Below, in pieces: positions 2,647 to 26,827 of a stretch of 37,912 bases of DNA. Source of the DNA: a candidate division KSB1 bacterium. GTDB lineage: Bacteria; Zhuqueibacterota; JdFR-76; DREG01. The translations under genes were made by a program, and so were the position numbers. The notes beneath the pieces were generated by a model that saw nothing but the letters and a program-made list of their open reading frames with translations, ran no database searches and was not told the origin of the DNA. The stretch spans positions 1 to 37,912 of the forward strand of contig JADFJB010000031.1 of assembly GCA_022566355.1 (NCBI GenBank), given 5' to 3'. The first letter of the stretch is position 1, and every line of letters starts with the position of its first letter.

Positions 2647-3702
2647 TTATTTCTTTGGTATAATTAAACGGGGAGCAAATTTTATACTAGTTTGAATAGT
2701 TTCATTACCTCGCTTGATCTTTAATTTAATTTGATCATCCACACTACTATTTTTTATTTGAGACCAAATCTCAGAGATACTCTTAACTTCTCTTTCATTA
2801 AACGAAACAATTTCATCCCCAACTTGGATACCGGCTTGTGAAGCAGGGCTATTATCTTGAATTTGACTAATTTGGAAAACCCCTCTTTGTTGGGAATCCT
2901 CCATAATTGTTAATCCAATCCATCCTGCCGGTTTCACTCTGTCAACAAGTTGAGCGATTCGAGGGAGAAGAGAGCCAATTGGGACTACTACATATTCATC
3001 ATGGTCTACTATGCCGGTATATTTGGATAACTCTTGCGTCACTTCAATTTTTGCGGCTAAAATTCCAACAACCTGGCCATTCAAATTAAAAACGGGCGCC
3101 CCGGAACAACCATTCCATGCACGTGCACCAATCAGGACATAGCCATTATCAAGGATCCCTTCAACAAGGCCAAGCGCAACGGCTGGACCATAACCGAATG
3201 AAGAACCCATAACATAAATCCAACTTCCAAGTCTCATTCCCGAATCATGAGCAAAAGATGGATTTGCAATAGGAATTCGATTAATTTTCAGTACTGTAAT
3301 CCCATTGGGTTGTTCACCTAATATTTCTGCATCAACCTCTTCACCTGTAAATAATCGAACGAATATCTTATTTTTATTTTTGACTATGCTAGATCTTGTC
3401 AGGACGATACCTTGTGAATCCACAAGTAACCCTGAACCTACATTTTTATAGTAAACTGGCTTTATGATCGATCTTGGATTTTGGCTAGAATCTGCAGATT
3501 GGACCGTTTCTTCATCATACATTTCCTGTGATACACCGATTACGGTTACAACATACTGTTGGGAATATGAGATTAACTTTTGCAACTCAGTCTCTAGTGT
3601 ATTAAAAGCCGGGCTTTGCGCCATGGCGGAAGAATTAATACCAGACAGGAGTAGTACAATTACAGCCCTCAAGGTATATTTTATCTTAAAATTAATCCGC
3701 AT
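2647..3702 (-). CDS. HtrA-like trypsin-fold/PDZ protein, probable pseudoprotease
   Basis: A 351-residue secreted protein: signal peptide about 1-28 (cleavage after AMA), a trypsin-like domain about 45-250, and one PDZ domain about 258-340. The fold is clear from GSGLLVDSQGIVLT, but where active HtrA proteins have TNNHVV this one reads TRSSIV (His to Ser105), and where they have TDLAVIKI it reads NGITVLKI (Asp to Gly134). The nucleophile serine remains in GCSGAP (Ser200), though GNSGG is altered. Two of three triad residues are lost, so proteolysis is unlikely. It is 17 bp downstream of a zf-HC2 anti-sigma gene and an ECF sigma gene, with an RBS GAGGAT. It probably acts in the periplasm as a ligand-binding regulator or chaperone in that circuit; that role is inference. 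A distinct, intact DegP-type protease occurs at 28169-29683. Confidence 0.88.
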   Translation of the reverse strand: MRINFKIKYTLRAVIVLLLSGINSSAMAQSPAFNTLETELQKLISYSQQYVVTVIGVSQEMYDEETVQSADSSQNPRSIIKPVYYKNVGSGLLVDSQGIVLTRSSIVKNKNKIFVRLFTGEEVDAEILGEQPNGITVLKINRIPIANPSFAHDSGMRLGSWIYVMGSSFGYGPAVALGLVEGILDNGYVLIGARAWNGCSGAPVFNLNGQVVGILAAKIEVTQELSKYTGIVDHDEYVVVPIGSLLPRIAQLVDRVKPAGWIGLTIMEDSQQRGVFQISQIQDNSPASQAGIQVGDEIVSFNEREVKSISEIWSQIKNSSVDDQIKLKIKRGNETIQTSIKFAPRLIIPKK

Positions 3703-3719
3703 ATTTATCCTCGAACTAG

Positions 3720-4358
3720 TTAAAAAGTTACAGTCTGAAGATTAGTTAGTAGAATCCGGTTTCTATTAGCATCCGTTGTCAAAGGTAGTTGCTGTTCAAA
3801 TCTTTTAATAGATTTCGCATGGCTCCATTCCGAATCCTTAAGAATATCTTTTTCTTTCACTTTTTCAAGAATATATATTAATTTCTCTGTGCTTTTTTCT
3901 TGATCAAGAACAATTGGGTTTTGATCGGGAATTATAGTACGAAGTTCCTGGAGTGGAGTTGGAGATACTGAACTACTGAAGGGTTGTCTATTTTCATTGG
4001 AGTGATGATAAATATCATAAGATATATATGCAAAAAATAGCACGACCGCTAAAGAATAACCTAATGCAGGAGTTGTTTTTGATTGGAAAAACAGTACAAT
4101 TTTATCAATAATAGTTTCAGATTCATGTTCAAGTTCTTTTCTAAGTCGACTTCTTAAAACAGCCTGAAATGAATCAGACGTCTTAACTTTCTCAAGATTT
4201 TGTAGATGATGACTTAGCTCTCCCATGCGATTAAGAACAGAATAACACTCAACACACGTTTTACAATGCTGTTCCAAGTTTAGTTTTTCGCCATTATCGA
4301 GAGCCCCCTCCAAATAATCTGATATTCTACTCGTGATATCTTCACATTTTGACACCAT
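3720..4358 (-). CDS. zf-HC2 membrane anti-sigma factor
   Basis: A 212-residue protein with the zinc-binding anti-sigma signature H-x3-C-x2-C (His31, Cys35, Cys38) in an N-terminal cytoplasmic domain, a single membrane helix at about 96-115, and a periplasmic C-terminal half of about 95 residues. Such proteins hold the cognate ECF sigma factor inactive at the membrane. The gene directly follows the ECF sigma gene (20 bp) with an excellent Shine-Dalgarno AAGGAGG, and precedes the HtrA-like gene. The periplasmic tail ends in Val-Thr-Phe-COOH, a hydrophobic-x-hydrophobic end of the kind PDZ domains bind, which is notable next to a periplasmic PDZ protein. Family assignment is firm; the partner assignment rests on gene order. 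Confidence 0.9.
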   Translation of the reverse strand: MVSKCEDITSRISDYLEGALDNGEKLNLEQHCKTCVECYSVLNRMGELSHHLQNLEKVKTSDSFQAVLRSRLRKELEHESETIIDKIVLFFQSKTTPALGYSLAVVLFFAYISYDIYHHSNENRQPFSSSVSPTPLQELRTIIPDQNPIVLDQEKSTEKLIYILEKVKEKDILKDSEWSHAKSIKRFEQQLPLTTDANRNRILLTNLQTVTF

Positions 4359-4378
4359 TTCCTCCTTGAGGTTAATTT

Positions 4379-5005
4379 TTATTTTTTATCCATTAGAAAT
4401 TTAAGTTTTTCCTGTAATCGCAATCTTGCGCGATTCACTCGTGACTTAACTGTCCCAAGTGGCACATCAATAATCTTACTGATCTCTTCATATGAAAGTT
4501 CCTGAATATCCCGCAAAATAACCACTTCACGAAACTTAGGAGAAAGCTGCTGAATTTCCCGTTGAATAATCTCGTCATACATACTTGAATTAGTATTTTT
4601 TTCCGGACTTTGAGATTCATCGGAGATTTCATAATCTTTATCCTCAAAACCAATTTCACTCAAAGAGTAAATGTTTCTTTTCTTCCTTTTACGCAACTCT
4701 GTTTTTGCCAAATTTCCAGCAATAGTATAAATCCAAGTAGAAAATTTTGCAATTTTTTTATATGCATGTTTATTTCTGAACACTCGCAAAAATGTTTCTT
4801 GTACAACGTCTTCGGATTCGATTGAATCTCCTAAAAATCGATAAACAAAATTCATTAGAGGATCTTTGTAACGCTTTACTATTTCATCAAATGCAAGAAT
4901 TTCCCCTTGTTGAAATGAAAAAATCAAGTCTTCATCATCCTGTTCAGATAACTCTAACCTCCGTTGTTTAGCTTGTAAATAATTTTCTTTTGTTGACAAA
5001 GCCAT
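4379..5005 (-). CDS. ECF-family RNA polymerase sigma factor (RpoE-like)
   Basis: A 208-residue group-4 sigma factor. Region 2 (about 30-100) contains DPLMNFVYRFLGD, the core-binding SEDVVQETFLRVFRN and the -10-recognition FSTWIYTIAGNLA followed by a basic stretch. Region 4 (about 150-202) contains LSPKFREVVILRDI and the helix-turn-helix YEEISKIIDVPLGTVKSRV. Residues 118-147 form an acidic, Ser/Asn-rich linker. It is followed by its probable membrane anti-sigma factor and a PDZ protein, the usual layout of an envelope-stress module. The start has no obvious Shine-Dalgarno sequence, and translation may be coupled to holA, whose stop lies 25 bp upstream. Target promoters were not identifiable here. 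Confidence 0.94.
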   Translation of the reverse strand: MALSTKENYLQAKQRRLELSEQDDEDLIFSFQQGEILAFDEIVKRYKDPLMNFVYRFLGDSIESEDVVQETFLRVFRNKHAYKKIAKFSTWIYTIAGNLAKTELRKRKKRNIYSLSEIGFEDKDYEISDESQSPEKNTNSSMYDEIIQREIQQLSPKFREVVILRDIQELSYEEISKIIDVPLGTVKSRVNRARLRLQEKLKFLMDKK

Positions 5006-6048: not shown

Positions 6049-6162
6049 TTAATCCGACTGAGCTTGTCGTTCTTTTCGAAAGGCTATAACAATTAGTGCG
6101 GCAAAACCTCCCCATACAATCGTCAAAAGTAAAATCATAAATACAATGGCTAGTGGTTTCAT
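6049..6162 (-). CDS. MetS-like small subunit of an NSS-family transporter
   Basis: A 37-codon gene. It encodes one hydrophobic helix (about residues 4-27, containing IVWGGFAALIVIAF) followed by a short charged tail RKERQAQSD. Its ATG overlaps the transporter stop (ATGA at 6162-6159), and a near-perfect GGAGG sits 4 bases upstream, so it is clearly arranged for coupled translation. In Corynebacterium glutamicum the methionine/alanine importer MetP requires such a small partner, MetS, and the I-V-W-G-G core is what I recall of that family. Position, size and motif agree; function is by analogy. It then runs 13 bp into holA. Confidence 0.8.
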   Translation of the reverse strand: MKPLAIVFMILLLTIVWGGFAALIVIAFRKERQAQSD

Positions 6163-7616
6163 TGCGCCTCCATATGAATTTTGTTCACTATTTTTTTATT
6201 AAATAACATAAACAAACCTATCGCAATTCCCCATTGAAATATACAAGTACCCAGACTAAATGGTTTGAATGGATTCCACCAACTTTCTGGTTCGTAGACC
6301 GTTACCGATTGATAGGACCACCAAACGATTAAAACAACAAACTCGATTGGAATGACATATTTTATCAAAAAAGAATACCACTTCCCAACTCGCAAATCAT
6401 TAGGTGCAGTATTCACCAATTCTGTTCTAAATTTTTCCGCTCCGAATTTTCTTACTGCTAATGCAAAAAAGAATCCGCTTAACATCAGACCCAGGCCCCA
6501 ATTCCAATCCTGGTTATCAAAAAAATCCAAAGATAGCGCCGATGGTACACCAAGCAGCAATGTGCCAAGCCAAACAAATTTAACCGCTTTTTGTCGTTCC
6601 ATGCCAAAATCCATAAAAATTCGAGCAGTCAATTCAACCATTGGGATTAGGGAAGAAAGCGCTGCAATAAACAAAGCAAAGAAAAACACAGTTGAAAATA
6701 AACTTCCCATGGCCATTTGGTTGAACAATTGAGGCATCCAGATAAAGGTAAATCCCTGGTTACCCTGGCTCATTACTTCCAGGGCTTTGGACTCTCCTAA
6801 AATTGAAAACACAGTTGGAATAATTGCTAATGCCACAATCAGTGAAGCCGAATTATTCCCCAAACCAACAAGATAGGCATTCAAGTTTACATCTTCTTTT
6901 TGTTTCATATACACAGCATATGTAAGAATTAATCCCCAACCAGCCCCGGTTGACCAGGCTGATTGTGACAAAGCTTGCAACCATACCTGGTAGTCTAAAA
7001 GTTTATCGAAATCCGGATTAAAAAGGAAATTCAAACCTGCCAAAGCATTTGGCAGGAATAAAGCGCGGGCAGCTGCTATTATCAATAATATAAATAATAA
7101 TGGCACGAAAATTTTTGCTGCCTTTTCAATTCCTTTTACAATTCCCTTATATACCACAATTCCGGCAAATGAAATAGCAATTAAATGGACCAGTAATGGC
7201 CAATATGAAGTAGAAAACCAGTTCCAGTACGTTTCATAATCGCCTGTAGTTGCAAGCTTTCCGGAAATCGATTGAACAAAATAGAAAAGGCTCCATCCGG
7301 TTACAACTGAATAATAAAACATAATTCCCATTGTACAAAATCCGACGAAGCTTCCCATCCAGGCAAATTTTCCACCCATTATTTGGGCAAAGGATCCAAT
7401 CGTCCCTTTACGTGTATGTTTACCGATTGCAAATTCCGCAATCAATAATGGAATGGACCAAATGAAAAGGAAGATAATCCAGGGAATTAAAAATGCACTA
7501 CCGCCGTTTTCTGCCACAATTCTTGGAAATCGCCAGATATTTCCTGCACCTACTGCCATGCCTATTGCTGCTAAAATCAAACCCCATCTTGAAGTAAATC
7601 TTTCAGGAACCGACAT
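6159..7616 (-). CDS. Neurotransmitter:sodium symporter (NSS) family amino-acid transporter
   Basis: A 485-residue inner-membrane protein of LeuT fold with about 12 membrane helices. The first helix carries the family signature AVGAGNIWRFPRIVAENGG, whose unwound part forms the sodium and substrate sites. The likely activity is Na+-driven uptake of an amino acid; the MetS-like small protein immediately downstream suggests a MetP-type carrier for methionine, alanine or a similar substrate, but the substrate cannot be read from sequence. The start has a good Shine-Dalgarno (AGGAG) and a promoter-like element upstream. It appears to be the first gene of a six-gene run ending with the HtrA-like gene. 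Confidence 0.93.
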   Translation of the reverse strand: MSVPERFTSRWGLILAAIGMAVGAGNIWRFPRIVAENGGSAFLIPWIIFLFIWSIPLLIAEFAIGKHTRKGTIGSFAQIMGGKFAWMGSFVGFCTMGIMFYYSVVTGWSLFYFVQSISGKLATTGDYETYWNWFSTSYWPLLVHLIAISFAGIVVYKGIVKGIEKAAKIFVPLLFILLIIAAARALFLPNALAGLNFLFNPDFDKLLDYQVWLQALSQSAWSTGAGWGLILTYAVYMKQKEDVNLNAYLVGLGNNSASLIVALAIIPTVFSILGESKALEVMSQGNQGFTFIWMPQLFNQMAMGSLFSTVFFFALFIAALSSLIPMVELTARIFMDFGMERQKAVKFVWLGTLLLGVPSALSLDFFDNQDWNWGLGLMLSGFFFALAVRKFGAEKFRTELVNTAPNDLRVGKWYSFLIKYVIPIEFVVLIVWWSYQSVTVYEPESWWNPFKPFSLGTCIFQWGIAIGLFMLFNKKIVNKIHMEAQ

Positions 7617-7848: not shown

Positions 7849-7893
7849 GTAATTCACAAAAAGAACTGTGGAAAGTACAAGAGGAAAGTAACA

Positions 7894-8361
7894 ATGGATA
7901 ATATTTTAATAGTGGATGATGAAGAGGATATACTGGAGTTATTATTTGATGTTGTGAAAAAATGGGGACACTTACCTATCATAGCAAGAGATGGCGAAGA
8001 TGCCTTGCAAAAAGTACAGGATGTTCCTATAGACCTTGTTTTATCTGATATCCGAATGCCTAAAATGGATGGCATGACTTTTCTGGAAAAACTAAAAAAA
8101 ATAAATCCTAATCTAACAGTGATTTTACTAACAGGCTATCCATCAGTGGAATCAGCCGTTCTCTCCATGAAAGAAGGCGCGTACGACTATCTCGTCAAAC
8201 CCATCAATTTAGACGAACTAAAAGAAAAAATTGATCGCGGGTTAGAAAGATCAAAACTTAGCCATTCATTAAAATTATTAAAAGGTGTCAACTGGTCATT
8301 ATTAATATCAATCCCATTCTGGTTGATCTTGGGAATCTTCCTCGCTAGATTATTGCGGTAA
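7894..8361 (+). CDS. Single-receiver response regulator with C-terminal membrane anchor
   Basis: A 155-residue protein. Residues 1-120 are a complete CheY-like receiver: acidic pair Asp8-Asp9, phosphoacceptor Asp52 in LVLSDIRMPKMDG, switch Thr80 in LLTGYPS, and Lys102 in YLVKP. The remainder is not a DNA-binding or enzymatic output domain but a short linker and a hydrophobic helix, about residues 134-152, ending in Arg-rich ARLLR, so the receiver is probably tethered to the inner face of the membrane. The start has an RBS (AGAGGAAAG). No histidine kinase is nearby. The receiver may act as a phosphate sink or as a membrane-localised switch for a partner; that is inference. Confidence 0.9.
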   Translation: MDNILIVDDEEDILELLFDVVKKWGHLPIIARDGEDALQKVQDVPIDLVLSDIRMPKMDGMTFLEKLKKINPNLTVILLTGYPSVESAVLSMKEGAYDYLVKPINLDELKEKIDRGLERSKLSHSLKLLKGVNWSLLISIPFWLILGIFLARLLR

Positions 8362-8549: not shown

Positions 8550-8990
8550 ATGCTTTACCAAACCCTGTATTATGTACATGCCGTAATAGGTTATGCCATA
8601 GCCCTTTATGCTTTACTGCTATATTGGCTGGACTATAGAATTGGGAGAATTGAATCTAGTTCAACTGAATATCAACAATTCAACCAAACAATGCAAAAAA
8701 TCCACCGAGGGATAAGTTTTAGTGCAATTGTTGCATTCTTGATTGGTGGATATATGGGAACTCCATTTTTTAAGGTTGGAGCGTTATGGATTATCTTAAA
8801 ACTAATCTTGTTTATTGTATGGATGGGGATAATGGGTGTACTTGGAACAAAAGCGCTCAAGCTACGAATGGAAACAGATAAGACAAATGAATCCTTGGTT
8901 CTTGCCCAGAAAAAAATGAACCTTTACAAACACATGCAATTAATTATTATTGCTACAATGTTCTATTTGGTTTATACTAAGCCTTTATGA
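8550..8990 (+). CDS. Four-helix integral membrane protein with conserved-looking histidines
   Basis: A 146-residue protein with four predicted membrane helices (about 10-28, 55-72, 77-99, 127-143). His10 lies at the start of helix 1, His52 just before helix 2 (MQKIHRGIS) and His128 just before helix 4. This spacing in a small four-helix protein recalls haem- or copper-binding families such as HemJ or CopD, but I cannot assign it to either. An RBS (AGGAG) and a long dyad precede the ATG. The next gene on the other strand is a ferritin, separated by a shared terminator, so a link to iron or haem is a loose inference. Real gene: high confidence; function unknown. Confidence 0.8.
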   Translation: MLYQTLYYVHAVIGYAIALYALLLYWLDYRIGRIESSSTEYQQFNQTMQKIHRGISFSAIVAFLIGGYMGTPFFKVGALWIILKLILFIVWMGIMGVLGTKALKLRMETDKTNESLVLAQKKMNLYKHMQLIIIATMFYLVYTKPL

Positions 8991-10671: not shown

Positions 10672-12555
10672 TTAACTAAGATCTGATTTTTCCAGTTTAG
10701 ATATTGCGGAAGTCGCTCGATTATAGAATTGTTGCATACCTTCTGGCGTAGCATTCGAAGGTGCAAATCTTTGGAAATCACACTCATGCACAATGGATAG
10801 CACCTCTTCAACAACTTCCTTTTTAACTTTTCTTTCACTCAGCTTTTCTTCAACTTCATCACTATTTAATCCAGCCGCTGATAAGTTCAGTTTGTCTGAG
10901 ATAAATCCAAACAAAGCTTTCGAGATTTCAGCATAAAATTCTTTTTGTTGATCGGTTTTTAATATTTTGTGGGCTCCTGCTAGTTTCTTCTTAGCCATCT
11001 GATTCGCACGTCGATTTCTCGCAAAAGCGACATTCACTTCCATTTTCCCTTGCCTTTGGCGGTAAAATAATGTGCCACCAAAAGCAACCAGGGGGATACC
11101 AAGTAAAAGTCCAAAAAGAAACGATTTATAAAAATGATTTCCTATCTTTTGAAATTCAACCGGACTTTCCTTAATAAAACGAATATCCCTACCTATGAAT
11201 TTTATCTCTTCACGAGTTAACCCGCTTGTGATTGGCGCACCCGTTCCCGACGATGCTTTCGCTTTGATCACAAATTCAGGTGTTTCCAGCCTCTTATAAA
11301 CAGCAGAGTTTGGATCGAAATATACAAAGGATATGGGTTTAATCCTGTGTGTCCCTGCAAACCTGGGAATAAAAACATATTCGTATACCTTTTCACCACT
11401 TATTACATCACCGCTCCGATTTATTTTCTGGCTTATTTCCGGTTCATATATTTCAAAGCCTTGAGGAAATTTAAATTTTGGCTCAGGAAGTATTTTAATA
11501 TTTCCACTTCCTTTGATTTTTATCTTCAGGGTAATCGCCTCGTTGGTTGACACTTCATTCTTATCCAAAGTTGCATTCCAACTGAAACTGCCAACGGCCC
11601 CACTAAAATCTGAAGGCCTGCCCTCCAGAGGTAAGGGTTTAACTGTAATTTTAAGTGGCTCACTTGCAATGGTTGTCCGAACCCTTTGACCAAAAGGACT
11701 ACTACTACCAAAAAAATCCTCAAAAATATCACGACTTCGTCTTCGTGATCTGAGCCGAACTTCACAATCTATTTCCATCGGCTCTAAAATTTTCTCCCCT
11801 GCTTGGGTAGGAAAAAGTGCAATCTTTTTGATTTCAGCTACAAGAAATCTTTTACCATCTATAATTTCTTCATAAGTATTTGGCTGTTTGGGAATCTCAA
11901 ATTCTTCAGTCCAAAAACCGATCAGATCAGGCGATTTGGTCAGGCTGTAATTACTCACCTCAACCCTAGTATAAATTTTATACGTAACGACAACAGGTTC
12001 ATATCTAAAAACCGTATTCTTATCGATTTCTGCGGCTAAATATAAATTCCCTTCAAGCTCATCTTCCGGTTGAATACCGCCACTCCTTGAACCCCAATTC
12101 CGAGCAGTTAAAGGCGGGGTAGTACCCTTAACGATTTCAATTTGAATTGGCCTTGAACGATATGTATTTCCGTTGAAATTTATCGTGATTGAGGGAATTT
12201 CAAATTTGCCTTCAGTGCTAGCAATATAGTTGTAGGTTGCACTCTTTGAAACTGACATTCTGCCATTTATTGACTGAAAACTGGATGTGGTACCTGAGTT
12301 CCCGGATAAAATGGCAAATGATGATAAATCCGGTGGATTGGGAATCCCTACGGATTGAGCTTCCTTTCCGGATATTTCAATTGTTAAAGAGAATTGTTGG
12401 TTGTTTGCTACTTTCGTGCGGTCGACTAAGGTTCTCAGCGTTAAATCCTGACCAAAGAGGAAATGTGGAATTGTAAAAAAGAATAAAACAAGGAAATAAA
12501 GACCACCTGAATTTAAATTTTGAAATTTGATATTTGTATTCTTATTAAAAGTCAT
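10672..12555 (-). CDS. batD: BatD: aerotolerance-type membrane protein
   Basis: A 627-residue protein of the Bat/oxygen-tolerance BatD family. It has an N-terminal signal/anchor (about 15-35), a long periplasmic part of repeated beta domains (e.g. LRTLVDRTKVANNQQFSLTI and a second LDKNEVSTNEAITLKIKI, both reading like the same Ig-like module), one membrane helix about 479-500, and a cytoplasmic helical tail with FISDKLNLSAAGLNSDEVEE and an ECDFQRFAPSN motif. That tail resembles the C-terminal domains of the two short BatD-like proteins in the same operon. Known Bat operons are linked to aerobic tolerance and stress; biochemical role unsettled. The gene lies 3 bp after batC. Confidence 0.88.
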   Translation of the reverse strand: MTFNKNTNIKFQNLNSGGLYFLVLFFFTIPHFLFGQDLTLRTLVDRTKVANNQQFSLTIEISGKEAQSVGIPNPPDLSSFAILSGNSGTTSSFQSINGRMSVSKSATYNYIASTEGKFEIPSITINFNGNTYRSRPIQIEIVKGTTPPLTARNWGSRSGGIQPEDELEGNLYLAAEIDKNTVFRYEPVVVTYKIYTRVEVSNYSLTKSPDLIGFWTEEFEIPKQPNTYEEIIDGKRFLVAEIKKIALFPTQAGEKILEPMEIDCEVRLRSRRRSRDIFEDFFGSSSPFGQRVRTTIASEPLKITVKPLPLEGRPSDFSGAVGSFSWNATLDKNEVSTNEAITLKIKIKGSGNIKILPEPKFKFPQGFEIYEPEISQKINRSGDVISGEKVYEYVFIPRFAGTHRIKPISFVYFDPNSAVYKRLETPEFVIKAKASSGTGAPITSGLTREEIKFIGRDIRFIKESPVEFQKIGNHFYKSFLFGLLLGIPLVAFGGTLFYRQRQGKMEVNVAFARNRRANQMAKKKLAGAHKILKTDQQKEFYAEISKALFGFISDKLNLSAAGLNSDEVEEKLSERKVKKEVVEEVLSIVHECDFQRFAPSNATPEGMQQFYNRATSAISKLEKSDLS

Positions 12556-12558
12556 TTC

Positions 12559-13299
12559 TTACCAATCTTTTTCGACGCGATACCGCCCTTTACTCTTAAC
12601 TTTCCGCTTTTTCTGAATATCCTTTTCATCATTCTTTAAGGCATCTAAAATTCGCTCAGCATCTTCTTTTGACAATTGTTCAGAGCTCTGTTGGTTTTGT
12701 TGCTCACCCTGCTGCTCTTGTTCCTCATCACCTTGCTGTTGTTGTTGTTGCTGCTGCTGATCTTGCTGATCTTGCTCATCGTCTCCTTGTTGTTGCTGCT
12801 GATTTTGTTGGTCTTGCTGTTGTTGCTGTTGTTGTTGGTTCTGTTGATCCTGGTTCTGCTCATCTTTATTATCTTTTAATTTACGGCGAACATATTCTAA
12901 ATTATACTTGGCGTCGATATCGTCAGGATTCATTTTCAATGCTTGTTGATAGGCAAGGATACTCTCTGGTAATTTTCCCAGTTTATATAGAGTGTTGCCA
13001 ACATTATAATATGTTTGTTGTTCTAGTTGCAAATCTTCACTTCCCATAACTTTTTGGTATTCTTGTAATGCCTCTTCATATTTATTCTTTTTGAATAATG
13101 TATTGCCAACGTTGAATTGAATTCTATCATTTTCAGGATCAGACAAAAGAGCATCTTGATATTTATTTAATGCCTGATCATAGTTCTTCTCAGCAAATAA
13201 TTCATTACCATTTTTTACCCTTTCCCTGGTAGATTGGGAAAACAGAATAGTTGGTAAAATCAAAACAAGTAAAACAATTGTATATCTGAACAATTTCAT
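12559..13299 (-). CDS. batC: BatC: TPR protein with glutamine-rich tail
   Basis: A 246-residue secreted or membrane-facing protein: signal peptide 1-21, three TPRs about 24-138 (RIQFNVGNTLFKKNKYEEAL, then YYNVGNTLYKLGKLPESIL, then a third ending DAKYNLEYVRR), then a charged, extremely Gln-rich stretch (147-208), and a basic C-terminus ending KSKGRYRVEKDW. This domain order is that of BatC proteins, where the tail is usually acidic/Gln-rich. It probably acts as a periplasmic protein-interaction scaffold for the VWA proteins BatA and BatB encoded just upstream. The start ATG lies 26 bp after the batB stop. Confidence 0.85.
   Translation of the reverse strand: MKLFRYTIVLLVLILPTILFSQSTRERVKNGNELFAEKNYDQALNKYQDALLSDPENDRIQFNVGNTLFKKNKYEEALQEYQKVMGSEDLQLEQQTYYNVGNTLYKLGKLPESILAYQQALKMNPDDIDAKYNLEYVRRKLKDNKDEQNQDQQNQQQQQQQQDQQNQQQQQGDDEQDQQDQQQQQQQQQGDEEQEQQGEQQNQQSSEQLSKEDAERILDALKNDEKDIQKKRKVKSKGRYRVEKDW
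12676..12861 (-). repeat. CAG/CAA low-complexity tract in batC
   Basis: About 186 bp of mostly CAA/CAG codons interspersed with GAT and GAA, encoding the Gln-rich tail (longest uninterrupted runs 8-9 Gln). It remains in frame with both flanks. Trinucleotide tracts of this kind can change length by slippage. The long open frames on the opposite strand here are a by-product of the repeat. Confidence 0.9.
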
Positions 13300-13325
13300 A
13301 ATATCACCTATTTGGTCTAATAAGT

Positions 13326-14357
13326 TTACTCAAACCTTCCTCTCCATTCGGTTTTTACTTTTTTCCGTTCCGGAATAAATAGATCGGCCAATAACAAGAA
13401 TAGGCCGATGACTAAGAAGTATTGAAATCGATCTTCGTACTGTAAAAAGATTCGTGACGATAATTCTTTTTTATCCATTTTATCTATATCTTCATAGATT
13501 TTGGAAAGTTCCATTTCTGCGGGTGTAGCATTATAATATTTACCATTCGTTTGAAGTGCAATTTTTTCGAGAGTGAATGGATCCAATTTAGAAGTAACTA
13601 CATTTCCTTTTTTGTCTTTCTTAAATCCCACTTGCTTCCCATATCCATCAAATTCAGGGATCGGAACTCCTTGCGTGGAGCCGATTCCTACTGTATAGAT
13701 TACGATGCCTTCTTTTTCTGCAATCTCTGCAGCTTTCATAGGATCCTTTACAGTATCTTCTCCATCTGTAATGAGAATCAATACTTTATGTTTTCTTTCC
13801 GTCACTACAAATGATTCAATTGATTTTTCTATTGCTTTGCCTATAGCGGTACCAGGCTTTGGAATTAAGCCCGGTTCAATAATATCCAGGAATATTTTTA
13901 GCGCGCCATAATCTAAAGTAAGCGGACATTGTACAAATGCTTCCCCGGCAAACACAATTAATCCAATACGATCACCTCGCAGTTGACGTATAAGTGTTGC
14001 TACTTCATGCTTTGCTTTGGTCAACCGGTTGGGTTTAATGTCCTCCGCCAACATCGATTTGGATACGTCAATCGCAACAAAAATGTCAACTCCCTTGCGC
14101 TTTATTTCTTCCAGTTTTGTACCAATTTGAGGCCGGGCAAGGGCAACAAGAAAGAAGAATAGTGATAGAATCAAAAGCGCTTTTTTCCAATTTTGTCGTT
14201 TTGGACTTTTTGACAGCATCAATTTTTCCATTAATTTTATATTGCCAAAACGTTCAAGGGCTTTCATTTTTGATTTTTGGACCCAAATAAAAAACAGGAA
14301 CAGAACCGGTACAAAAAAAAGAGTATATAAATATTGTTCGCTTGCAAATCGAAACAT
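13326..14357 (-). CDS. batB: BatB: VWA-domain membrane protein
   Basis: A 343-residue inner-membrane protein. Helices at about 9-26 and 61-78 precede a von Willebrand A domain (about 88-285) with an intact MIDAS metal site: DVSKS (Asp-x-Ser-x-Ser), the threonine in CPLTLDYG and ITDGEDT. A third helix lies near the C-terminus (about 311-331), followed by a basic tail. It is paralogous to BatA encoded just upstream. The metal-binding VWA domain should face the periplasm and bind partner proteins, with MoxR acting from the cytoplasm. Gene order batA-batB-batC-batD-batE is canonical. Confidence 0.9.
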   Translation of the reverse strand: MFRFASEQYLYTLFFVPVLFLFFIWVQKSKMKALERFGNIKLMEKLMLSKSPKRQNWKKALLILSLFFFLVALARPQIGTKLEEIKRKGVDIFVAIDVSKSMLAEDIKPNRLTKAKHEVATLIRQLRGDRIGLIVFAGEAFVQCPLTLDYGALKIFLDIIEPGLIPKPGTAIGKAIEKSIESFVVTERKHKVLILITDGEDTVKDPMKAAEIAEKEGIVIYTVGIGSTQGVPIPEFDGYGKQVGFKKDKKGNVVTSKLDPFTLEKIALQTNGKYYNATPAEMELSKIYEDIDKMDKKELSSRIFLQYEDRFQYFLVIGLFLLLADLFIPERKKVKTEWRGRFE

Positions 14358-14372
14358 TGTAATCCTGAAATC

Positions 14373-15368
14373 TTATGGTATTTTCTTGAATTTTGTATTT
14401 GATAATAACATTTCCAACCCAAACAAAATCAATCCCAAAGAAAGAAAAATTGAAAACAATTCGCGATAACGAGTGTATTCTTTAACTTCAATTTTGGTTT
14501 TTTCTAATTGACCAATCTCATCAAAAATTTTCTCAAGAGAACTTTTATCTATAGCCCTGAAATATTTCCCACCTGTCATAGATGCTATCTTTTGCAAAAG
14601 GTCCTCATCAATTTCAACTGGTAAGCGTTGATATCTTTTCCCAAACACGGGATCTACAATAGGGTACAAGGCAGTACCTTTGCTTCCTGCGCCAATGGTG
14701 TAAATCTTTACGTCCAACGCTTTGGCAATTTGTGCAGCCGATAAAGGGTGTAATTCGCCGGAATTGTTACGGCCATCGGTTAAGAGAATAATCACTTTGC
14801 TCTTAGATTTACTATCACGAAGGCGGTTAACGGCATTTGCAATAGCCATTCCGATTGCAGTGCCATCTTCAACCAAACCTATTTTTACATCTCTTATAAA
14901 GTTTAACAAGACACCATAGTCTAACGTTAGCGGACATTGCGTATAACTTTCTCCGGCAAAAACCACCATACCGATTCTATCGCTTGTTCGACCTTTTACG
15001 AAATCCTGCGCGACAAGTTTGGCAACTTCTAATCTATTTTTGGGCTTAAAGTCTTCCGCCAGCATAGAACTGGAAATATCCAAAGCCAAAATAATATCGA
15101 TCCCTTCGGTTGTAATTTCCTCTTCTTTGCTGCCGGATTGGGGTCTCGCCAACGCAATAATGATTAGTCCCATCGCCAACAGCCGAAGACCGAATAAGAT
15201 ATGCCTATAAAAATACCATCGAGATTTGCCGGCAGACTTAATGATATTTAAATTGGAATATTGCAAAGTTACAGTTTGTGGAGAACGCCGTTTGAAATGC
15301 AAAAAGAGCAATACCGGCAAAAGCAGTAATAATAATAAAAAATACGGATCGGCTAATCGATACAACAT
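14373..15368 (-). CDS. batA: BatA: VWA-domain membrane protein
   Basis: A 331-residue BatA-type protein: N-terminal helix about 9-25, a second helix near 57-74, VWA domain about 85-285 with MIDAS residues DISSS, the threonine in CPLTLDYG and LTDGRNN, and a C-terminal helix about 309-325. The BatA N-terminal hallmark ADPYFLLLLLLLPVLL is present. The ATG directly follows the TAG of the upstream BatD-like gene (TAGATG), so translation is coupled. It is probably a periplasm-facing adhesive or assembly module of the Bat complex. Confidence 0.92.
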   Translation of the reverse strand: MLYRLADPYFLLLLLLLPVLLFLHFKRRSPQTVTLQYSNLNIIKSAGKSRWYFYRHILFGLRLLAMGLIIIALARPQSGSKEEEITTEGIDIILALDISSSMLAEDFKPKNRLEVAKLVAQDFVKGRTSDRIGMVVFAGESYTQCPLTLDYGVLLNFIRDVKIGLVEDGTAIGMAIANAVNRLRDSKSKSKVIILLTDGRNNSGELHPLSAAQIAKALDVKIYTIGAGSKGTALYPIVDPVFGKRYQRLPVEIDEDLLQKIASMTGGKYFRAIDKSSLEKIFDEIGQLEKTKIEVKEYTRYRELFSIFLSLGLILFGLEMLLSNTKFKKIP

Positions 15369-16466
15369 CTAATTATTTTCCTTATTCAAATCTGACGGAG
15401 GCTCTTCTTCCGTAACAATTGCAACTTCAGGTTGTTGATTCTCTTCATTTTTCATCTGATCTAAGTCAACCACTTTCACTTCATCTTCCGTCGTTTTTTC
15501 TGGTAGCTCCAAACCTAGCTCATCTACCCATTTGGTCTCATCTACAATACGAATGGCTGACTTCATAATTTCATTATTTTCTTCATCAGCCGGAATAAAC
15601 TTTGCGAATTTAACCAAGTCGCAATCGGTAAAAAACATTTCAAAAAGCGATGCATGTTCGGAAGATAAATCCGAAGTATTAAGTTCAATCATCAATTCCA
15701 TAGTGGTAAGCTCAAGTGCGATAATTTGAAATCGTCCTTCGATATATTTCCGAATAATTTCCGATATTTCCGAATAATAAAGCTTAATTTGACCCTGTTC
15801 AAGAACATCCGAATTTTGTAATGATTTAAGTTCTTCATAAGCGATTTCATGGGGAGGCCTGGGTATTTCAATTTTTTTCGGTAAAAATGATTCACCTTTT
15901 TTCCGCTTCCGTAAATAAATAATCAAACCGATTATAAGGAGAATCACAATTAATGCGATCGATCCGCCAATAATAATGGGCCCCCAATTGAATAGGATTT
16001 CCCAGGGTGGTTTAATATCTTTGATATCGCCTTCTTCGCTGGGCTTAACGCTTTCTACCGTAATATTAATGACTTCCGTTTTGAGGGTTTGTTCAGTTGA
16101 GTCCGGTGGGATAAAATACCTGACACCAACAGGTGGTATCTCAAATTCGCCAACTTCAAAGGTTGAAATTGTATAATCAACCCGGTCAATGATTTTGCCA
16201 TCTTTTTTTTCAGGTTCATGAATGTTATAATCACGAATTTCGAATTGTCCCAGGTTTCCACCCAGGCTTGGAAGTTCAACAGATACATCCTCATCTCGGG
16301 TAACAGATACTGAATAGGTTATGATATCCCCAATGGTTATTGTCGTTTTATCAACACTCGCAGACAGCGAAATGTTTCCCTGACCAAATCCATCGGAAGC
16401 AAAATAGAAATTAAATAAATAAATGAGAATTAAAGTTGAGTATATTTTTTTGTAACCAAACGTCAT
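15369..16466 (-). CDS. Short BatD-like membrane protein (second copy)
   Basis: A 365-residue protein with a signal peptide (about 1-28), a periplasmic Ig-like beta domain starting ISLSASVDKTTITIGD, one membrane helix about 165-190 followed by RKRKK, and a cytoplasmic helical domain (about 208-310) including YYSEISEIIRKYIEGRF and CDLVKFAKF. It then ends in an acidic, probably disordered tail. Layout and motifs parallel the 319-residue protein that opens the operon, so the two are likely paralogues, both related to BatD. I use the ATG at 16466 rather than the in-frame TTG one codon earlier. It lies between the TPR/SurA-like lipoprotein and batA. Confidence 0.8.
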   Translation of the reverse strand: MTFGYKKIYSTLILIYLFNFYFASDGFGQGNISLSASVDKTTITIGDIITYSVSVTRDEDVSVELPSLGGNLGQFEIRDYNIHEPEKKDGKIIDRVDYTISTFEVGEFEIPPVGVRYFIPPDSTEQTLKTEVINITVESVKPSEEGDIKDIKPPWEILFNWGPIIIGGSIALIVILLIIGLIIYLRKRKKGESFLPKKIEIPRPPHEIAYEELKSLQNSDVLEQGQIKLYYSEISEIIRKYIEGRFQIIALELTTMELMIELNTSDLSSEHASLFEMFFTDCDLVKFAKFIPADEENNEIMKSAIRIVDETKWVDELGLELPEKTTEDEVKVVDLDQMKNEENQQPEVAIVTEEEPPSDLNKENN

Positions 16467-16478
16467 CAATCTACCAGT

Positions 16479-17402
16479 TTATTTTATCAGGTCATCATAA
16501 ATTACGACTTTTTCAGCTTGAAATAACGAGGAAATCAATTCATTATATGCTTTTTCTTGTCGCTCAAAAGCTAATTTTTGTGCTGCTTGTTGACCCGCTT
16601 CTTCGAAGGACAACATCCGTTTAACATTTCCATCTTCATCTTTTTCCGCAAAATCATCTTTATGTGCATCATAATATAGTTTAACATCATCTTCGGTGAT
16701 TTTTACTTTTTTACTGATTTCTTCATCCAACAGCTTTGTTACCATAAAGGTTTTTTTTGCTTGAAAAACGTTTTCCAAAACTTGACTATCATTGTCGAGT
16801 CCCTGTCGTTTGGCAGAATCATACAATAATTCTGTTGCCAGATATCTGCGAAGAAATTCAATTTTATTATCAATCCTGATATATTGTGACCGGAGTTCAG
16901 GTGGCAATTTACTGATTTCAAAATCCAGGTCTCCCAATGTGATATCTCGATTGCCAATCTTAGCGATGACTTCTCCTGGGCGACTTTTTTGGGTCTGTCC
17001 TTCAAACGATGTGCTTTCCTTCAACGCTTGTTGAGCATCGGCGGGTCTTTGTAATCTCTCTAAACAGGCGATGACTTTTTTGTTCACTTTCGAAATAAGT
17101 GGGCTTTCCGGATATAAAGTTTTGATTTTCAAAAAATGTGCAAGTGAATTTTTATAATCACGCATACGATCAAAATAAATATTAGCTATTTGATAGGTAA
17201 TATTCGCTTGTTCTTTTGGCTCCAGATTGTAGTTTTCGAGATAAAACCGATATTGATCGACTGCTTGCTCAAACAGCTGTCGATTATAAAGTTCATTGGC
17301 AAATTCTCGTATTTTTTCAGCACTGAAATCCGGCTGGGAACTGGAACTACAACCCGTCAAAACTCCCAACGAGAAAACAAAAATCAAATTGCGCAATGGC
17401 AT
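16479..17402 (-). CDS. TPR lipoprotein with SurA-N-like segment
   Basis: A 307-residue lipoprotein: signal with lipobox LTGC (Cys18). Residues 20-135 are TPR-like helices (LYNRQLFEQAVDQYRFYLEN, then IANIYFDRMRDYKNSLAHFL). From about residue 143 the sequence changes to a SurA/PpiC N-terminal type, with VIAKIGNRDITLGDLDFEI and a following long helical region containing TEDDVKLYYDAHKDDFAEKD. The parvulin isomerase domain itself is absent: the protein stops soon after the position where it would begin. It is therefore probably a chaperone-like or scaffold protein rather than an isomerase. It is sandwiched in the Bat operon, downstream of DUF58. Confidence 0.8.
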   Translation of the reverse strand: MPLRNLIFVFSLGVLTGCSSSSQPDFSAEKIREFANELYNRQLFEQAVDQYRFYLENYNLEPKEQANITYQIANIYFDRMRDYKNSLAHFLKIKTLYPESPLISKVNKKVIACLERLQRPADAQQALKESTSFEGQTQKSRPGEVIAKIGNRDITLGDLDFEISKLPPELRSQYIRIDNKIEFLRRYLATELLYDSAKRQGLDNDSQVLENVFQAKKTFMVTKLLDEEISKKVKITEDDVKLYYDAHKDDFAEKDEDGNVKRMLSFEEAGQQAAQKLAFERQEKAYNELISSLFQAEKVVIYDDLIK

Positions 17403-17462
17403 TGTTATTTATATTCCTATTCTTGGTTTTTAGAATTGCTTTTTTCTTTCATCGTTAAATAA

Positions 17463-18341
17463 CTATCTGAACCGTTTCGCTCGCATGCGAAAAAACCGCA
17501 TTAAAGGCTCCGCGTAAGCTTGATGTGTAAAAATATCAATATGATCAATATTCATTGATTTAAATAATTTTTCACGTTCAATTTTAAGAGCATTTGCTTT
17601 CTGAACAAAACCGGTACGGATATCGGAACTGTTAGTATCAACCATGAAAATTTCACCAGTTTCAGCATCTTCGAATTCAATAAATCCAACCGCGGGCAAT
17701 TCCGTCTCTCTTGGATCAGTGATTGTGATTGCAACTACATCATGACGTTTATTCGCTATTTGTAGCGCTTTTTTATAATCCTCTGATATAAAATCTGAAA
17801 CCAAAAAAACAACACTTCTTCTTTTTGCTATGTGGTTTAAAAATTCCAGGGCTCCGGCGATATCGGTTTTTGTACTTCGGGGTTTGTGAAATAATAATTC
17901 TCTTAGCACGCGAAGCACATGACTTTGGCCTTTTTTAGGCGCTACAAATTTTTCGACTCCATCTGTAAATATTATCAAACCGACTTTGTCATTATTTTTG
18001 ATTGCAGAAAAAGCCAGCAGTGCACAAATTTCAATTGCAATTTCACCTTTCATTTGTTCAAAAGTGCCAAAATTCCCGGATGAGCTGACATCAACCATTA
18101 AAATGACCGTTAATTCACGCTCTTCTTCAAATACTTTAACAAAAGGATGACCCATTCGTGCCGATACGTTCCAGTCAATTACACGGATGTCATCACCTAG
18201 AGTGTATTCACGTACTTCGGTAAAGTCCATCCCTCTTCCTTTGAACACCGAATGGTATTGTCCGGAAAATACATCGTTTACCAACCCACGGGTTGTAATT
18301 TCGATGCGTTTAACTTTTTTAAGTATTTCTTTTGGAATCAT
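17463..18341 (-). CDS. DUF58 / VWA-like protein partner of MoxR
   Basis: A 292-residue soluble protein of the DUF58 family. The signature GRGMDFTEVREYTLGDDIR leads into IDWNVSARMGHPFVKVFEEE, followed by a VWA-like fold with the MIDAS-type motif DVSSS and an IFTDGVEKF strand. DUF58 proteins almost always accompany MoxR ATPases and are thought to be their adaptor or substrate. It is cytoplasmic, with no signal or membrane helix. The 84-bp gap after moxR shows nothing remarkable. Confidence 0.92.
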   Translation of the reverse strand: MIPKEILKKVKRIEITTRGLVNDVFSGQYHSVFKGRGMDFTEVREYTLGDDIRVIDWNVSARMGHPFVKVFEEERELTVILMVDVSSSGNFGTFEQMKGEIAIEICALLAFSAIKNNDKVGLIIFTDGVEKFVAPKKGQSHVLRVLRELLFHKPRSTKTDIAGALEFLNHIAKRRSVVFLVSDFISEDYKKALQIANKRHDVVAITITDPRETELPAVGFIEFEDAETGEIFMVDTNSSDIRTGFVQKANALKIEREKLFKSMNIDHIDIFTHQAYAEPLMRFFRMRAKRFR

Positions 18342-18425
18342 ATTATTTTTTTGAATAAACTTTCACGAAACTTGAAGTTTCTCATATAAAATTAGGTTCG
18401 TCGCTTTTACGAATCTCTGCCACTA

Positions 18426-19460
18426 TTAAGGTACTTCAATATGATTTAATACTCTCCGAACAATGTCCTCGGAGCTCACTTCTTCTGCTTCGGCTTCGTA
18501 CGTTGGAATAACACGATGCCTCAATACATCCATGCCAATTGCTCGGACATCTTCAGGAGTTACGTATCCTCTTCGCCTCAAAAATGCATGTGCTTTGCTG
18601 GCAGCAGCCAAAGCAATTGAAGCACGTGGTGAGGCGCCAAAAGCAATCAGATCGTTCATATCGGCGAGCTGGTAATCCGAGGGATTTCGAGTAGCAAAGA
18701 CAATATCGATGATGTAGCGTTCAATTTTTTCGTCAATATAGACTTGAGATACAACTTTTCGGGCTTGAATGATCTCTTTTATACTAACGACGGGTTTTGG
18801 TTCCGGCAATCCATCTCCTGAATTGAGTCGCATGATTTCCAATTCCTCTTCTTTATTTGGATAACCGATGGAAAGCTTTAACATAAATCGATCAATTTGT
18901 GCTTCCGGTAATGGATAAGTTCCCTCTTGTTCGATTGGATTTTGTGTTGCGAGTACTAAAAATGGCTCATCCAGCTTAAAAGTATTATTTCCGATGGTTA
19001 CCTGATGTTCCATCATAGCTTCAAGAAGTGCACTTTGAACTTTAGCAGGCGATCTATTAATTTCATCCGCTAATATGATATTTGCAAATATCGGACCTTT
19101 TTTGGTAGAAAATTCTCCACTGCGCTGGTCAAAGATCATCGTTCCGATTAAATCAGCAGGGAGTAAATCAGGAGTAAATTGCAATCTCTGAAATTTAGCT
19201 TTTATTGTACCGGCTAATACACGAACGGCAAGTGTTTTGGCCAGGCCTGGCACGCCTTCAAGTAAAATGTGGCCATTGCTTAATAAGCCTATCAATAAAC
19301 GTTCAACCATATATTTTTGACCAATAATAATTTTGTTGAATTCACCAAGTATCTTCTCAATAAATTCACTTTCTTTTTGAATCATCTCATTAATCTCTTG
19401 AATATCCTTGTGAAGCAAAACTGGGCCTGCTTTTCGAATCGTTATTTTTTGGTATTCCAT
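18426..19460 (-). CDS. MoxR-family AAA+ ATPase
   Basis: A 344-residue AAA+ chaperone. Walker A is GVPGLAKT, Walker B ILADEINR, followed by the sensor/helix region SALLEAMMEHQVTIG, sensor 1 ATQNPIEQEGTYPLPEAQID and a C-terminal lid with FGASPRASIAL. The N-terminus is about 17 residues longer than typical MoxR proteins, and the ATG at 19460 lacks an evident RBS, so the true start could be further in. MoxR proteins drive maturation or assembly of VWA partners; here these would be DUF58, BatA and BatB. It lies 22 bp after the first short BatD-like gene. Confidence 0.94.
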   Translation of the reverse strand: MEYQKITIRKAGPVLLHKDIQEINEMIQKESEFIEKILGEFNKIIIGQKYMVERLLIGLLSNGHILLEGVPGLAKTLAVRVLAGTIKAKFQRLQFTPDLLPADLIGTMIFDQRSGEFSTKKGPIFANIILADEINRSPAKVQSALLEAMMEHQVTIGNNTFKLDEPFLVLATQNPIEQEGTYPLPEAQIDRFMLKLSIGYPNKEEELEIMRLNSGDGLPEPKPVVSIKEIIQARKVVSQVYIDEKIERYIIDIVFATRNPSDYQLADMNDLIAFGASPRASIALAAASKAHAFLRRRGYVTPEDVRAIGMDVLRHRVIPTYEAEAEEVSSEDIVRRVLNHIEVP

Positions 19461-21158: not shown

Positions 21159-23771
21159 TTATTTCGTTTTCTTTCTAAATTCAAGAGAATTTCCCCTGCG
21201 AATTACTTTGATTAAATCTCCGGAAACAAAACTTCCAACCAGTAATTCTTTTGCAAGTTTATTGGTGAGCAATCTTTGCATTTCTCTTTTAATTGGCCTG
21301 GCTCCAAATGCGGGGTCATAGCCAACTTCAGTTAGTAGTTGAATTGCATCGTCTGCAATGGATAAAATGATTCCATTCTCATGTGCTTTTTTTGCAACTA
21401 ATTGAAATTGTAATTTCACAATTTCAGCAATATGTTCATGATCAAGTGGACGAAAGACGATTGTTTCGTCAATGCGATTCAGAAACTCCGGCCGCATTGA
21501 CCGTTTTAATAAATCAATCGCTTCATATTTGATTTCCTGGTAGATTTGCTCCCGATTCTTTTCAGTAATCAACAATGATTTTTCCAGGATCATGGTAGCC
21601 CCTAAATTGGAAGTCATGATCACAATCACATTTTTAAAATTGACTGTATGACCTTTATTATCCGTTAATCGTCCTTCATCCAGAACCTGGAGTAAAATAT
21701 TAGACACATCTGGATGTGCTTTTTCAATCTCATCCAACAAAACTACTGAATATGGCCTGCGTCTAACTGCTTCGGTCAACTGCCCTCCTTCATCGTAGCC
21801 GACATAGCCCGGGGGCGCTCCAATAAGCCTGGCAACCGAATGTCTTTCCATATATTCGGACATATCAATCCGGATCATCGCATGTTCATCATCGAATAAA
21901 AATTCAGCCAACGCCCTGGCTAATTCGGTTTTACCAACACCCGTTGACCCTAAGAAAATGAATGATCCAATGGGTCTATTGTCATCTTGTAAACCAGCGC
22001 GAGACCTTCGAATTGCATCCGAAATTGCCTGGACAGCTTCTTCTTGACCAATTAATCTTTGCTTTAAGCGTTTCTCCATAGTTAAGAGTTTTTCACGCTC
22101 CGATTCAAGCATCCGGCTAACAGGTATTCCGGTCCATTTATATACAACGTCTGCAATATCTTCCTCATCTACTTCTTCTTTAAGCATTTTGAAATTTTTC
22201 TGAATATTCTGGAGATTTTTATTCTCTGATTCAAGCTTCTTTTGCAGGTCTATTGTCCTACCATACTTCAATTCAGCAGCTCGACTTAAATCGCCATCTC
22301 TTTCCGCCTGGGCCATTAAAGTTTTAGTTTTCTCCAATTCTTCCTTCACGGATCTAATGGTTTGAATGGAATTCTTTTCCAAAGTCCAATGTGATCGAAG
22401 TTCCCTTCTTTGCTCATTCAAGTCAGACAATTCTTTTTGAATTTTGTTTAAACGATTTCTGGCGGCATCATCTTTATCTCGTTTTACAGCTTCCCGTTCT
22501 ATTTCCAATTGTTTTATTTTTCGCTCTACTTCGTCAAGCTCATCTGGCATACTATCAATTTCAATCCGCAGTTTTGCAGCTGCTTCGTCTATTAAATCGA
22601 TAGCCTTATCCGGCAAAAATCGATCACTAATATAGCGGTGCGATAGAGTTGCCGCTGCAATGATGGCTGAATCAGTCATCCGAACCCCATGATGAACTTC
22701 ATACTTCTCTTTGAGTCCGCGTAAAATTGAAATGGTTTCCGATACTGACGGTTCATTTACCAAAACCTGCTGGAAACGGCGTTCCAGCGCTGCATCTTTT
22801 TCGATATATTTTCTATATTCATCTATAGTAGTTGCACCGATACAACGTAACTCTCCTCGCGCCAATACGGGTTTAAGCATGTTTGATGCATCCATAGCCC
22901 CTTCTGCAGCCCCTGCCCCAACCAGAGTATGCAACTCATCAATAAATAGGATAATTTTGCCATCAGACTCCTCGATTTCTTTGAGCACCGCTTTTAATCT
23001 ATCTTCAAATTCACCTCGATATTTAGAGCCGGCGATTAATGAACCGAGGTCTAATGTGACGATTTGTTTGTTTTTTAAATTCTCAGGGACATCGCCGCTA
23101 ACAATTCTTTGAGCCAATCCTTCAGCAATTGCAGTTTTCCCAACACCCGGTTCTCCAATCAATACCGGGTTGTTTTTGGTCCTGCGAGACAATACTTGTA
23201 AAACTCGTCGAACTTCTTCATCTCTTCCGATTACCGGATCCAACTTTCCCTGTTCTGCCAAATTAGTTAAATTTTGTCCATAACGCTCCAACGCTTGATA
23301 TTTTGCTTCCGGGTTTTGGTCTGTCACCCGTTGGCTGCCCCGAATTGATTTCAGGACACTATACAACTTATCTCGCGTTATCCCATTACTTCGAAGAATT
23401 TGACCGGTTTCCCCATCATCCTCGGTCATTACGATAAGCAGGTGTTCAAGACTCACATACTCATCTTTCATATTTTTTGCTTCTTTAAATCCTTTATCAA
23501 TTAATTTATTGAGTCTCTGATCCATATATAATTGAGAAACCTCGCCATACACTTTGGGAATTTTTTCGATCCTTTCAGAAACCTGAGATTGAATCACTTG
23601 AGCATTAATTCCAATTTTATTTAAAACTGAAACTGGAACTCCATCCGGATCAGTCAACATTGCAAAGAGAAGATGTTCTACATCTACTTTTTGCTGATTA
23701 TATTCCGAAGTAATTTCCTGTGCTTTTTTCAACGCCTCTTGTACTTTTATTGTCATTTTATCAAATGTCAT
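21159..23771 (-). CDS. clpB: ATP-dependent disaggregase ClpB
   Basis: An 870-residue Hsp100 protein that, with DnaK/DnaJ/GrpE, extracts polypeptides from aggregates. The Clp N domain (about 1-145) begins with [20 protein letters not shown]1 follows with Walker A GEPGVGKT and Walker [11 protein letters not shown]. The ClpB-specific coiled-coil middle domain (about 400-530) is present, so this is ClpB rather than ClpA or ClpC. AAA2 has Walker A GSTGVGKT and [14 protein letters not shown], followed by the C-terminal domain. No C-terminal IGF/IGL ClpP loop was seen. It follows the dnaK terminator, so it has its own promoter, not clearly identified, or relies on readthrough. Confidence 0.97.
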
Positions 23772-23831
23772 TTGTTATAATCCTAATTCCTAATCTCCAA
23801 AGAATATTTTAAGGTTATAATAATTATAACT

Positions 23832-23874
23832 GAAAATAAAAAACGGCGAGAGGAATATATTTTCCAACTCGCCG
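23832..23874 (-). terminator. Terminator after dnaK
   Basis: On the minus strand ACGGCGAG and CTCGCCGT form an 8-bp GC-rich stem, extended by an inner GGAA/TTCC pairing, followed by TTTTTTATTTTC. It lies 29 bp past the dnaK stop. Confidence 0.85.
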
Positions 23875-23903
23875 TACTTATTAGATTCCTCGTTTTTTTC
23901 TCT

Positions 23904-25820: not shown

Positions 25821-25869
25821 TTAAATTACCTCCGTTAATAAATTTTATCTTGACTATTAATTAATTAGT

Positions 25870-26244: not shown

Positions 26245-26286
26245 TTTGAACCTCCAACTAAATAAATATATTTTCTACTTAGGCAG

Positions 26287-26301
26287 GCAAGCACTGTGCC
26301 A
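26287..26301 (-). promoter_or_regulatory. sigma-54 (-24/-12) promoter of hsp20-dnaK
   Basis: The minus strand reads TTGGCACAGTGCTTGCC: TGGCAC, five bases, TTGC, with GG and GC separated by exactly 10 bp as RpoN requires. The predicted start near 26276 gives a short leader to the hsp20 ATG at 26244. Confidence 0.78.
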
Positions 26302-26387
26302 AGTTTTGTTTATTGATATTAGTTCTTATTTATCAAAGAGTTATGCACAATTATAAAAATACTGCTAAAAGGAGTATTTTGAAATTA

Positions 26388-26434
26388 TGACAGAATTAAA
26401 GGTCTTATTGTCAGAAGAGCTAGACTATGTGACA
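26388..26434. promoter_or_regulatory. Candidate enhancer-binding half-sites for hsp20-dnaK
   Basis: TGACA (26388-26392), TGTCA (26409-26413) and TGACA (26430-26434) are spaced exactly 21 bp apart, i.e. on the same helix face, 88-134 bp upstream of the -24 element. This is a usual distance for sigma-54 activator sites. Inference from spacing; the same pentamers occur upstream of the other hsp20. Confidence 0.4.
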
Positions 26435-26807: not shown

Positions 26808-26827
26808 AAATTGCAACCTCCGATACC

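Follow-up and report, generated by a model that had tools for sequence, protein, structure and literature searches.

In textbook two-component signaling, the message starts from a membrane-resident kinase and travels off with the response regulator. Regulators with membrane segments of their own have also been described, including the membrane-anchored MetOD3 response regulators (REC-MetOD3) of methanogens (PMC5847659) and LytTR-domain regulators with transmembrane segments in Caulobacter, together with hybrid membrane regulators (PMC10269533). Here we examine a protein encoded in a 37,912-nucleotide stretch of DNA (hereafter the window) from a candidate division KSB1 bacterium (contig JADFJB010000031.1 of assembly GCA_022566355.1). 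We use the name REC-TM for this tail-anchored single-domain response regulator, the product of nucleotides 7894-8361. Its sequence and model describe a phosphate-accepting receiver that is predicted to be fixed to the inner membrane via a single C-terminal helix, and this helix, to judge from its conservation across much of the phylum and in a few lineages outside it, probably does the work of an output and is more than a passive anchor. Within the open-licence literature that was searched, no published account of a lone receiver domain ending in a conserved transmembrane helix came to light. A preliminary description of the locus had started from the premise that response regulators are almost always soluble. 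The membrane-attached regulators of other architectures cited above make that premise too strong as worded.

A complete receiver with a predicted membrane tail

The open reading frame starts with ATG and runs for 155 codons, and the strand opposite to it has stops throughout. The Pfam model Response_reg matches residues 4-113 (E 4.9e-27, model positions 1-110 of 111). It is the sole Pfam domain in the protein, and neither Pfam nor NCBIfam places a domain after residue 130. The phosphorylation pocket is complete (Asp8/Asp9, Asp52, Thr80, and Lys102), and the residues invariant across 30 aligned relatives are Asp9, Asp52, Thr80, Lys102, Pro56, Gly60, Tyr99, Pro103, and Pro141. Thus, the receiver is phosphorylation-competent as judged by its intact residues, and the complete receiver with Asp52, Thr80, and Lys102 that the preliminary description had read is borne out.

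The receiver fold is ordinary. A Foldseek search with the AlphaFold2 model finds 3crn (TMt 0.92), and the structural neighbors (PDB, Foldseek) include receivers of NtrC1 and NtrX whose alpha5 is extended. The nearest receiver sequences are likewise of the NtrC/AtoC/NtrX type, whether in the same genome, in NCBIfam, or in the PDB. The NCBIfam match to AtoC (E 5e-31) lies far under the equivalog cut-offs, at 108 versus 714 bits. A PADLOC match was set aside because it concerns merely the receiver part of another model.

The final 22 residues, WSLLISIPFWLILGIFLARLLR, have hydrophobicity at the level of transmembrane segments. The best 19-residue Kyte-Doolittle mean of the tail is 2.31, and the corresponding values range from 1.88 to 2.86 in 30/30 relatives. 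The full tail motif reads K-G-(L/I/V)-N-W-x5-I-P-x-W-L-x2-G-I-x-L-A. AlphaFold2, given an input alignment of 35 sequences from the window and a restricted set of loci, models the receiver, a helix at residues 106-130, and a second helix at residues 134-154. The mean predicted local distance difference test (pLDDT) score of the model is 89, and it falls to 58 for residues 131-140. By prediction (hydrophobicity, AlphaFold2), REC-TM therefore has the makeup of a tail-anchored protein: a single C-terminal transmembrane helix, no signal peptide, and a cytoplasmic N-terminal domain.

A chance hydrophobic tail is excluded by phylum-wide conservation, by purifying selection, and by the finding that 0.8% of random 37-residue tails of receiver composition attain a mean of 2.3. 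An amphipathic helix lying on the membrane surface is disfavored, because most members have a low hydrophobic moment (0.01-0.5) and the mean hydrophobicity is that of transmembrane segments. Furthermore, 13 other short receivers of the window genome, a non-exhaustive set from a genome with 54 listed receiver matches, have no comparable hydrophobic segment (highest mean 1.38). The C-terminal hydrophobic helix noted in the preliminary description is thus upheld and is conserved as a unit with the receiver. The membrane-localized switch proposed there is the best-fitting reading, but the membrane location it presumes is a prediction.

Constraint on the tail exceeds that on the receiver

Besides the invariant Pro141, residues Ile140, Trp143, Leu144, and Gly147 are nearly invariant in the 30 sequences. 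Mean information in this set is 3.0 bits for residues 131-155, 2.8 for the receiver, and 2.0 for the linker (residues 119-130), the least conserved stretch of REC-TM. With 51 sequences, the tail averages 3.07 bits versus 2.67 elsewhere in the protein. Control proteins from the same genomes behave in the reverse manner, both of their membrane segments being less conserved than their own soluble parts (2.50 for the LemA anchor versus 3.44 for its soluble part, and 1.90 for the TPM leader segment versus 3.05). The pooled ratio of nonsynonymous to synonymous differences (pN/pS) in seven close pairs is 0.059 for the tail and 0.072 for the receiver, with synonymous sites partly saturated. Conservation along the tail also shows a helical period (permutation p 0.013).

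One genome (G040) carries a second copy (L138:2966-3580, minus strand, 204 residues) in which the tail motif SIPLWLLIG follows a domain that resembles a receiver but has decayed beyond recognition by Pfam. The pocket of this product is decayed and its tail is intact, and its gene lies near those for an OmpR-type regulator and a kinase. Together, a tail conserved more strictly than the receiver, its helical period, and this decayed-pocket copy suggest that the helix serves as a surface for interaction. Because the membrane helix is more tightly conserved than the switch, its probable role is that of the working output.

This pattern bears on another proposal, in which the helix only keeps the receiver near its kinase and REC-TM, held at the membrane, serves either as a phosphate sink or as an intermediate of a phosphorelay. 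A membrane kinase would then donate phosphate that REC-TM hands to a histidine phosphotransfer protein or loses, as Spo0F or a sink CheY does. A receiver with intact phosphorylation residues and no soluble output domain suits such a role, as does a gene that usually does not adjoin a kinase, which is common for relay receivers, and Spo0F is among the PDB matches of the REC-TM receiver. However, a helix that only tethers has no need of conservation, yet the tail exceeds both the receiver and the control segments in this respect, and no phosphotransferase is linked to REC-TM in the neighborhoods read. We therefore consider this proposal doubtful, albeit well worth keeping in view. The sink, which the preliminary description had offered beside a switch, is conceivable but leaves a membrane helix conserved above its receiver unexplained.

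A conserved helix face is equally expected if the tail docks constitutively on the transmembrane part of one kinase or transporter while the phosphorylated receiver acts as an adaptor for a soluble client, as RssB or MrrA does. Indeed, RssB (3f7a) is a Foldseek match over 148 columns, though this reflects the common receiver fold and a long alpha5. No surface for a client or an adaptor role can be discerned, and the linker is the part of the protein that varies most. We regard docking of this kind as distinctly unlikely.

Distribution and possible common descent

The preliminary description had suggested searching for receiver-plus-helix proteins of about 155 residues, and such proteins proved to be common in the phylum and sporadic outside it, where most are in metagenome-assembled genomes labeled Deltaproteobacteria. 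A profile of the tail, built from the last 37 residues only and applied to 82 genomes of the phylum at a threshold of E up to 1e-5, matches 41/82 genomes at one place per genome and always on the REC-TM receiver. One of these 41 loci is cut by a contig end. Diverged members (e.g., in G008, G012, G014, and G020) are matched by the full-length query and missed by the tail profile at E 1e-5. Outside the phylum, full-length members occur in metagenome-assembled genomes labeled Deltaproteobacteria or Syntrophobacterales (L028, L029, and L036), in G087, and in 3/198 sampled genomes of the phylum of G082, G082 included. L028 and L029 contributed to the tail profile and so match it by construction; G087, G133, and G168 did not contribute.

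This distribution leaves virtually no weight for the notion that REC-TM is a frameshifted remnant of a larger NtrC-type regulator with a hydrophobic end by chance. A receiver closest to the NtrC/AtoC type would be expected of such a remnant. Yet the same length and tail recur in half of the phylum genomes and beyond the phylum, and the tail pN/pS is 0.06. The preliminary description had asked whether longer orthologues exist elsewhere, and the remnant idea fails on this check: counted from the homologous start, orthologues in relatives of the window genome have 154-160 residues and the same terminal helix, with matches that run to the query end at 37-74% identity.

The profile results also bear on whether the tail is conserved as a signal for targeting or insertion (to a cell pole, to a microdomain, or by a dedicated insertase) rather than as an interaction surface. 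The tail is short, conserved, located at the extreme C terminus, and basic at its end, an outline like that of known C-terminal sorting or tail-anchor signals. A general signal should recur, but the only significant match of the tail profile in the window genome is REC-TM itself, and within the phylum the tail is confined to this receiver. Such a signal has, in our estimation, a slim chance of being the explanation.

In a receiver tree built with the tails removed (125 columns), 37/38 REC-TM receivers group together along with one outsider. The best tree in which all 38 are forced into one clade is likelier than the quick tree (approximately unbiased test, p-AU 0.89). A single origin of REC-TM fits this tree, as one clade is not rejected, which falls short of proof. 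That the receivers still cluster without their tails indicates that receiver and tail have traveled together.

A proposed output within the membrane

The complete receiver, the predicted membrane helix, the conservation of both parts as a unit, and the strong purifying selection on the tail are computed observations. To these we add a tentative proposal, to which we assign a probability of roughly 45%, that REC-TM is a tail-anchored single-domain response regulator whose transmembrane helix is the output module and is switched by phosphorylation. With similar reserve, we suggest that phosphorylation might take effect inside the membrane, through helix-helix packing with another REC-TM copy or with a partner there, and that no soluble effector domain would be involved. 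For this scheme, we infer a kinase and phosphorylation, membrane insertion with an in-out topology, dimerization, a partner, and an effect on that partner.

Specifically, a histidine kinase would phosphorylate Asp52, and the phosphorylated receiver would alter its alpha4-beta5-alpha5 surface and probably also its dimer form, as in NtrC-type receivers. Alpha5, continuing into the juxtamembrane helix (106-130), could couple this change to the helix in the membrane (134-154). The conserved face of that helix (Asn133, Trp134, Ser139, Ile140, Pro141, Trp143, Leu144, Gly147, and Ala151) might then repack against a second copy or a membrane protein, and the repacked helix would set the activity of the membrane partner. 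Small-xxx-small motifs like Gly147-xxx-Ala151 are known from packed membrane helices.

Several points weigh against this proposal. The controls number only two, and one of them (TPM) is a secretion leader. The most diverged members (L120-L122 and L036) keep just the central Pro and Gly and a general hydrophobicity, and tail conservation could also reflect strict localization or an insertion signal. Neighbors were compared across families, as the preliminary description had advised, and none is common to all: in the neighborhoods read, neighbors vary by family and no partner gene is universally linked. Nor was a cognate kinase identified for REC-TM. The lack of a common neighbor is as expected for an orphan regulator.

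If the proposal is true, then this regulator returns the message into the membrane and directly controls a transporter, kinase, or enzyme there, and a testable function could be assigned to signaling proteins of a poorly cultivated phylum. As a single-copy family recognizable by its short tail signature, REC-TM lends itself to testing, and the signature allows further members to be found.

Genomic context

The features of the REC-TM locus are collected in Table 1.

Table 1. Features of the REC-TM gene and its product, in window coordinates.
Feature	Position	Strand	Basis and remarks
REC-TM gene, 155 residues	7894-8361	+	Open reading frame, full-length orthologues, purifying selection; own transcription unit in the window genome
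Shine-Dalgarno-like AGAGGA	7880..7885	+	Read in the sequence; 8 bases before ATG
Receiver domain, residues 4-113, NtrC/AtoC-like	7903..8232	+	Pfam PF00072, PDB and NCBIfam matches, AlphaFold2 and Foldseek
Phospho-acceptor Asp52 codon	8047..8049	+	Sequence; invariant in 30 relatives
Long alpha5 and juxtamembrane helix, residues 106-130	8209..8283	+	AlphaFold2; sequence variable past 118
Tail signature N-W-x5-I-P-x-W-L-x2-G, residues 133-147	8290..8334	+	Pro141 invariant
Predicted transmembrane helix, residues 134-154, with Gly147-xxx-Ala151	8293..8355	+	Hydrophobicity, AlphaFold2, tail profile search

In the window, REC-TM lies 277 bases from a divergent SNF-family symporter gene (6159-7616) and 188 bases from a gene for an orphan 146-residue protein (8550-8990, plus strand), which is followed by ferritin. 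The orphan protein has several hydrophobic segments and no Pfam or NCBIfam match, and it is not beside the receiver in the relatives read. Elsewhere, families f5, f7, f9, f18, and f22 have nth upstream of REC-TM and the small basic protein f4 downstream, family f10 has a convergent rhomboid gene beside it, and the most diverged members have PAC2 downstream.

The f4 proteins form a small basic family of 106-150 residues, ending in ...K+RW(T/S)RRLG..LFGW.WKK and matching nothing in Pfam or NCBIfam. They occur in 39/82 phylum genomes, nearly always as a single copy (e.g., L015:1994-2314, L108:4512-4925, and L207:750-1103, all on the plus strand), in the gene order nth-[REC-TM]-f4-TPM-nucleotidyltransferase-LemA. 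Although f4 is directly downstream of REC-TM in about a dozen genomes, it was rejected as an obligate partner, as other families have it without REC-TM and the gene order of the window lacks it. The adjacency is more likely old synteny.

In family f12 only, REC-TM is immediately preceded on its own strand by a GGDEF-HD-GYP gene, at a distance of 20-50 bases in two genomes (loci L189:2801-4072, minus strand; L116:3796-5040, plus strand; and L204:3547-4824, plus strand). A link to cyclic di-GMP was set aside because this arrangement is confined to that family. In genome G077, REC-TM is beside FliA-like sigma, FlgN-like, and OmpA-type genes. A general role as a flagellar switch (CheY) is excluded because about 19/41 carrier genomes have no genuine FliG match; the window genome has FliG.

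Three other gene groups in the window, all on the minus strand, can be mentioned. On reading the sequence, positions 2647-5005 appear to encode an extracytoplasmic function (ECF) sigma factor, an anti-sigma factor with one transmembrane segment, and a trypsin/PDZ-type protease in a row. Positions 10672-19460 hold a Bat-type operon whose products include BatD, a MoxR ATPase, von Willebrand proteins, and DUF58; Pfam confirms three of these. An apparent stress cluster, also from reading the sequence, spans positions 21159-31664, with ClpB, DnaK, two Hsp20 proteins, a DegP-like protease, a DnaJ-type protein, and GrpE.

Comparison with known systems

Among described regulators, the archaeal REC-MetOD3 proteins resemble REC-TM in having a membrane-anchored output part, a likeness drawn by description and not by sequence (PMC5847659). 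Hybrid membrane regulators and LytTR regulators with transmembrane segments also join two-component domains to membrane segments, but they carry a DNA-binding domain, whereas REC-TM has none (PMC10269533). The sigma-54 response regulators NtrC, AtoC, and NtrX have the closest receiver sequences and share the extended alpha5 with REC-TM. However, the NtrC family has sigma-54 AAA+ and DNA-binding (helix-turn-helix) parts, and REC-TM has neither, ending at residue 155. In overall plan, REC-TM is like the single-domain regulators of the CheY/Spo0F type, which are also stand-alone receivers with a full phosphorylation pocket and no recognized output domain. In contrast to these soluble proteins, REC-TM, like 30/30 of its aligned relatives, ends in a conserved, predicted membrane helix.
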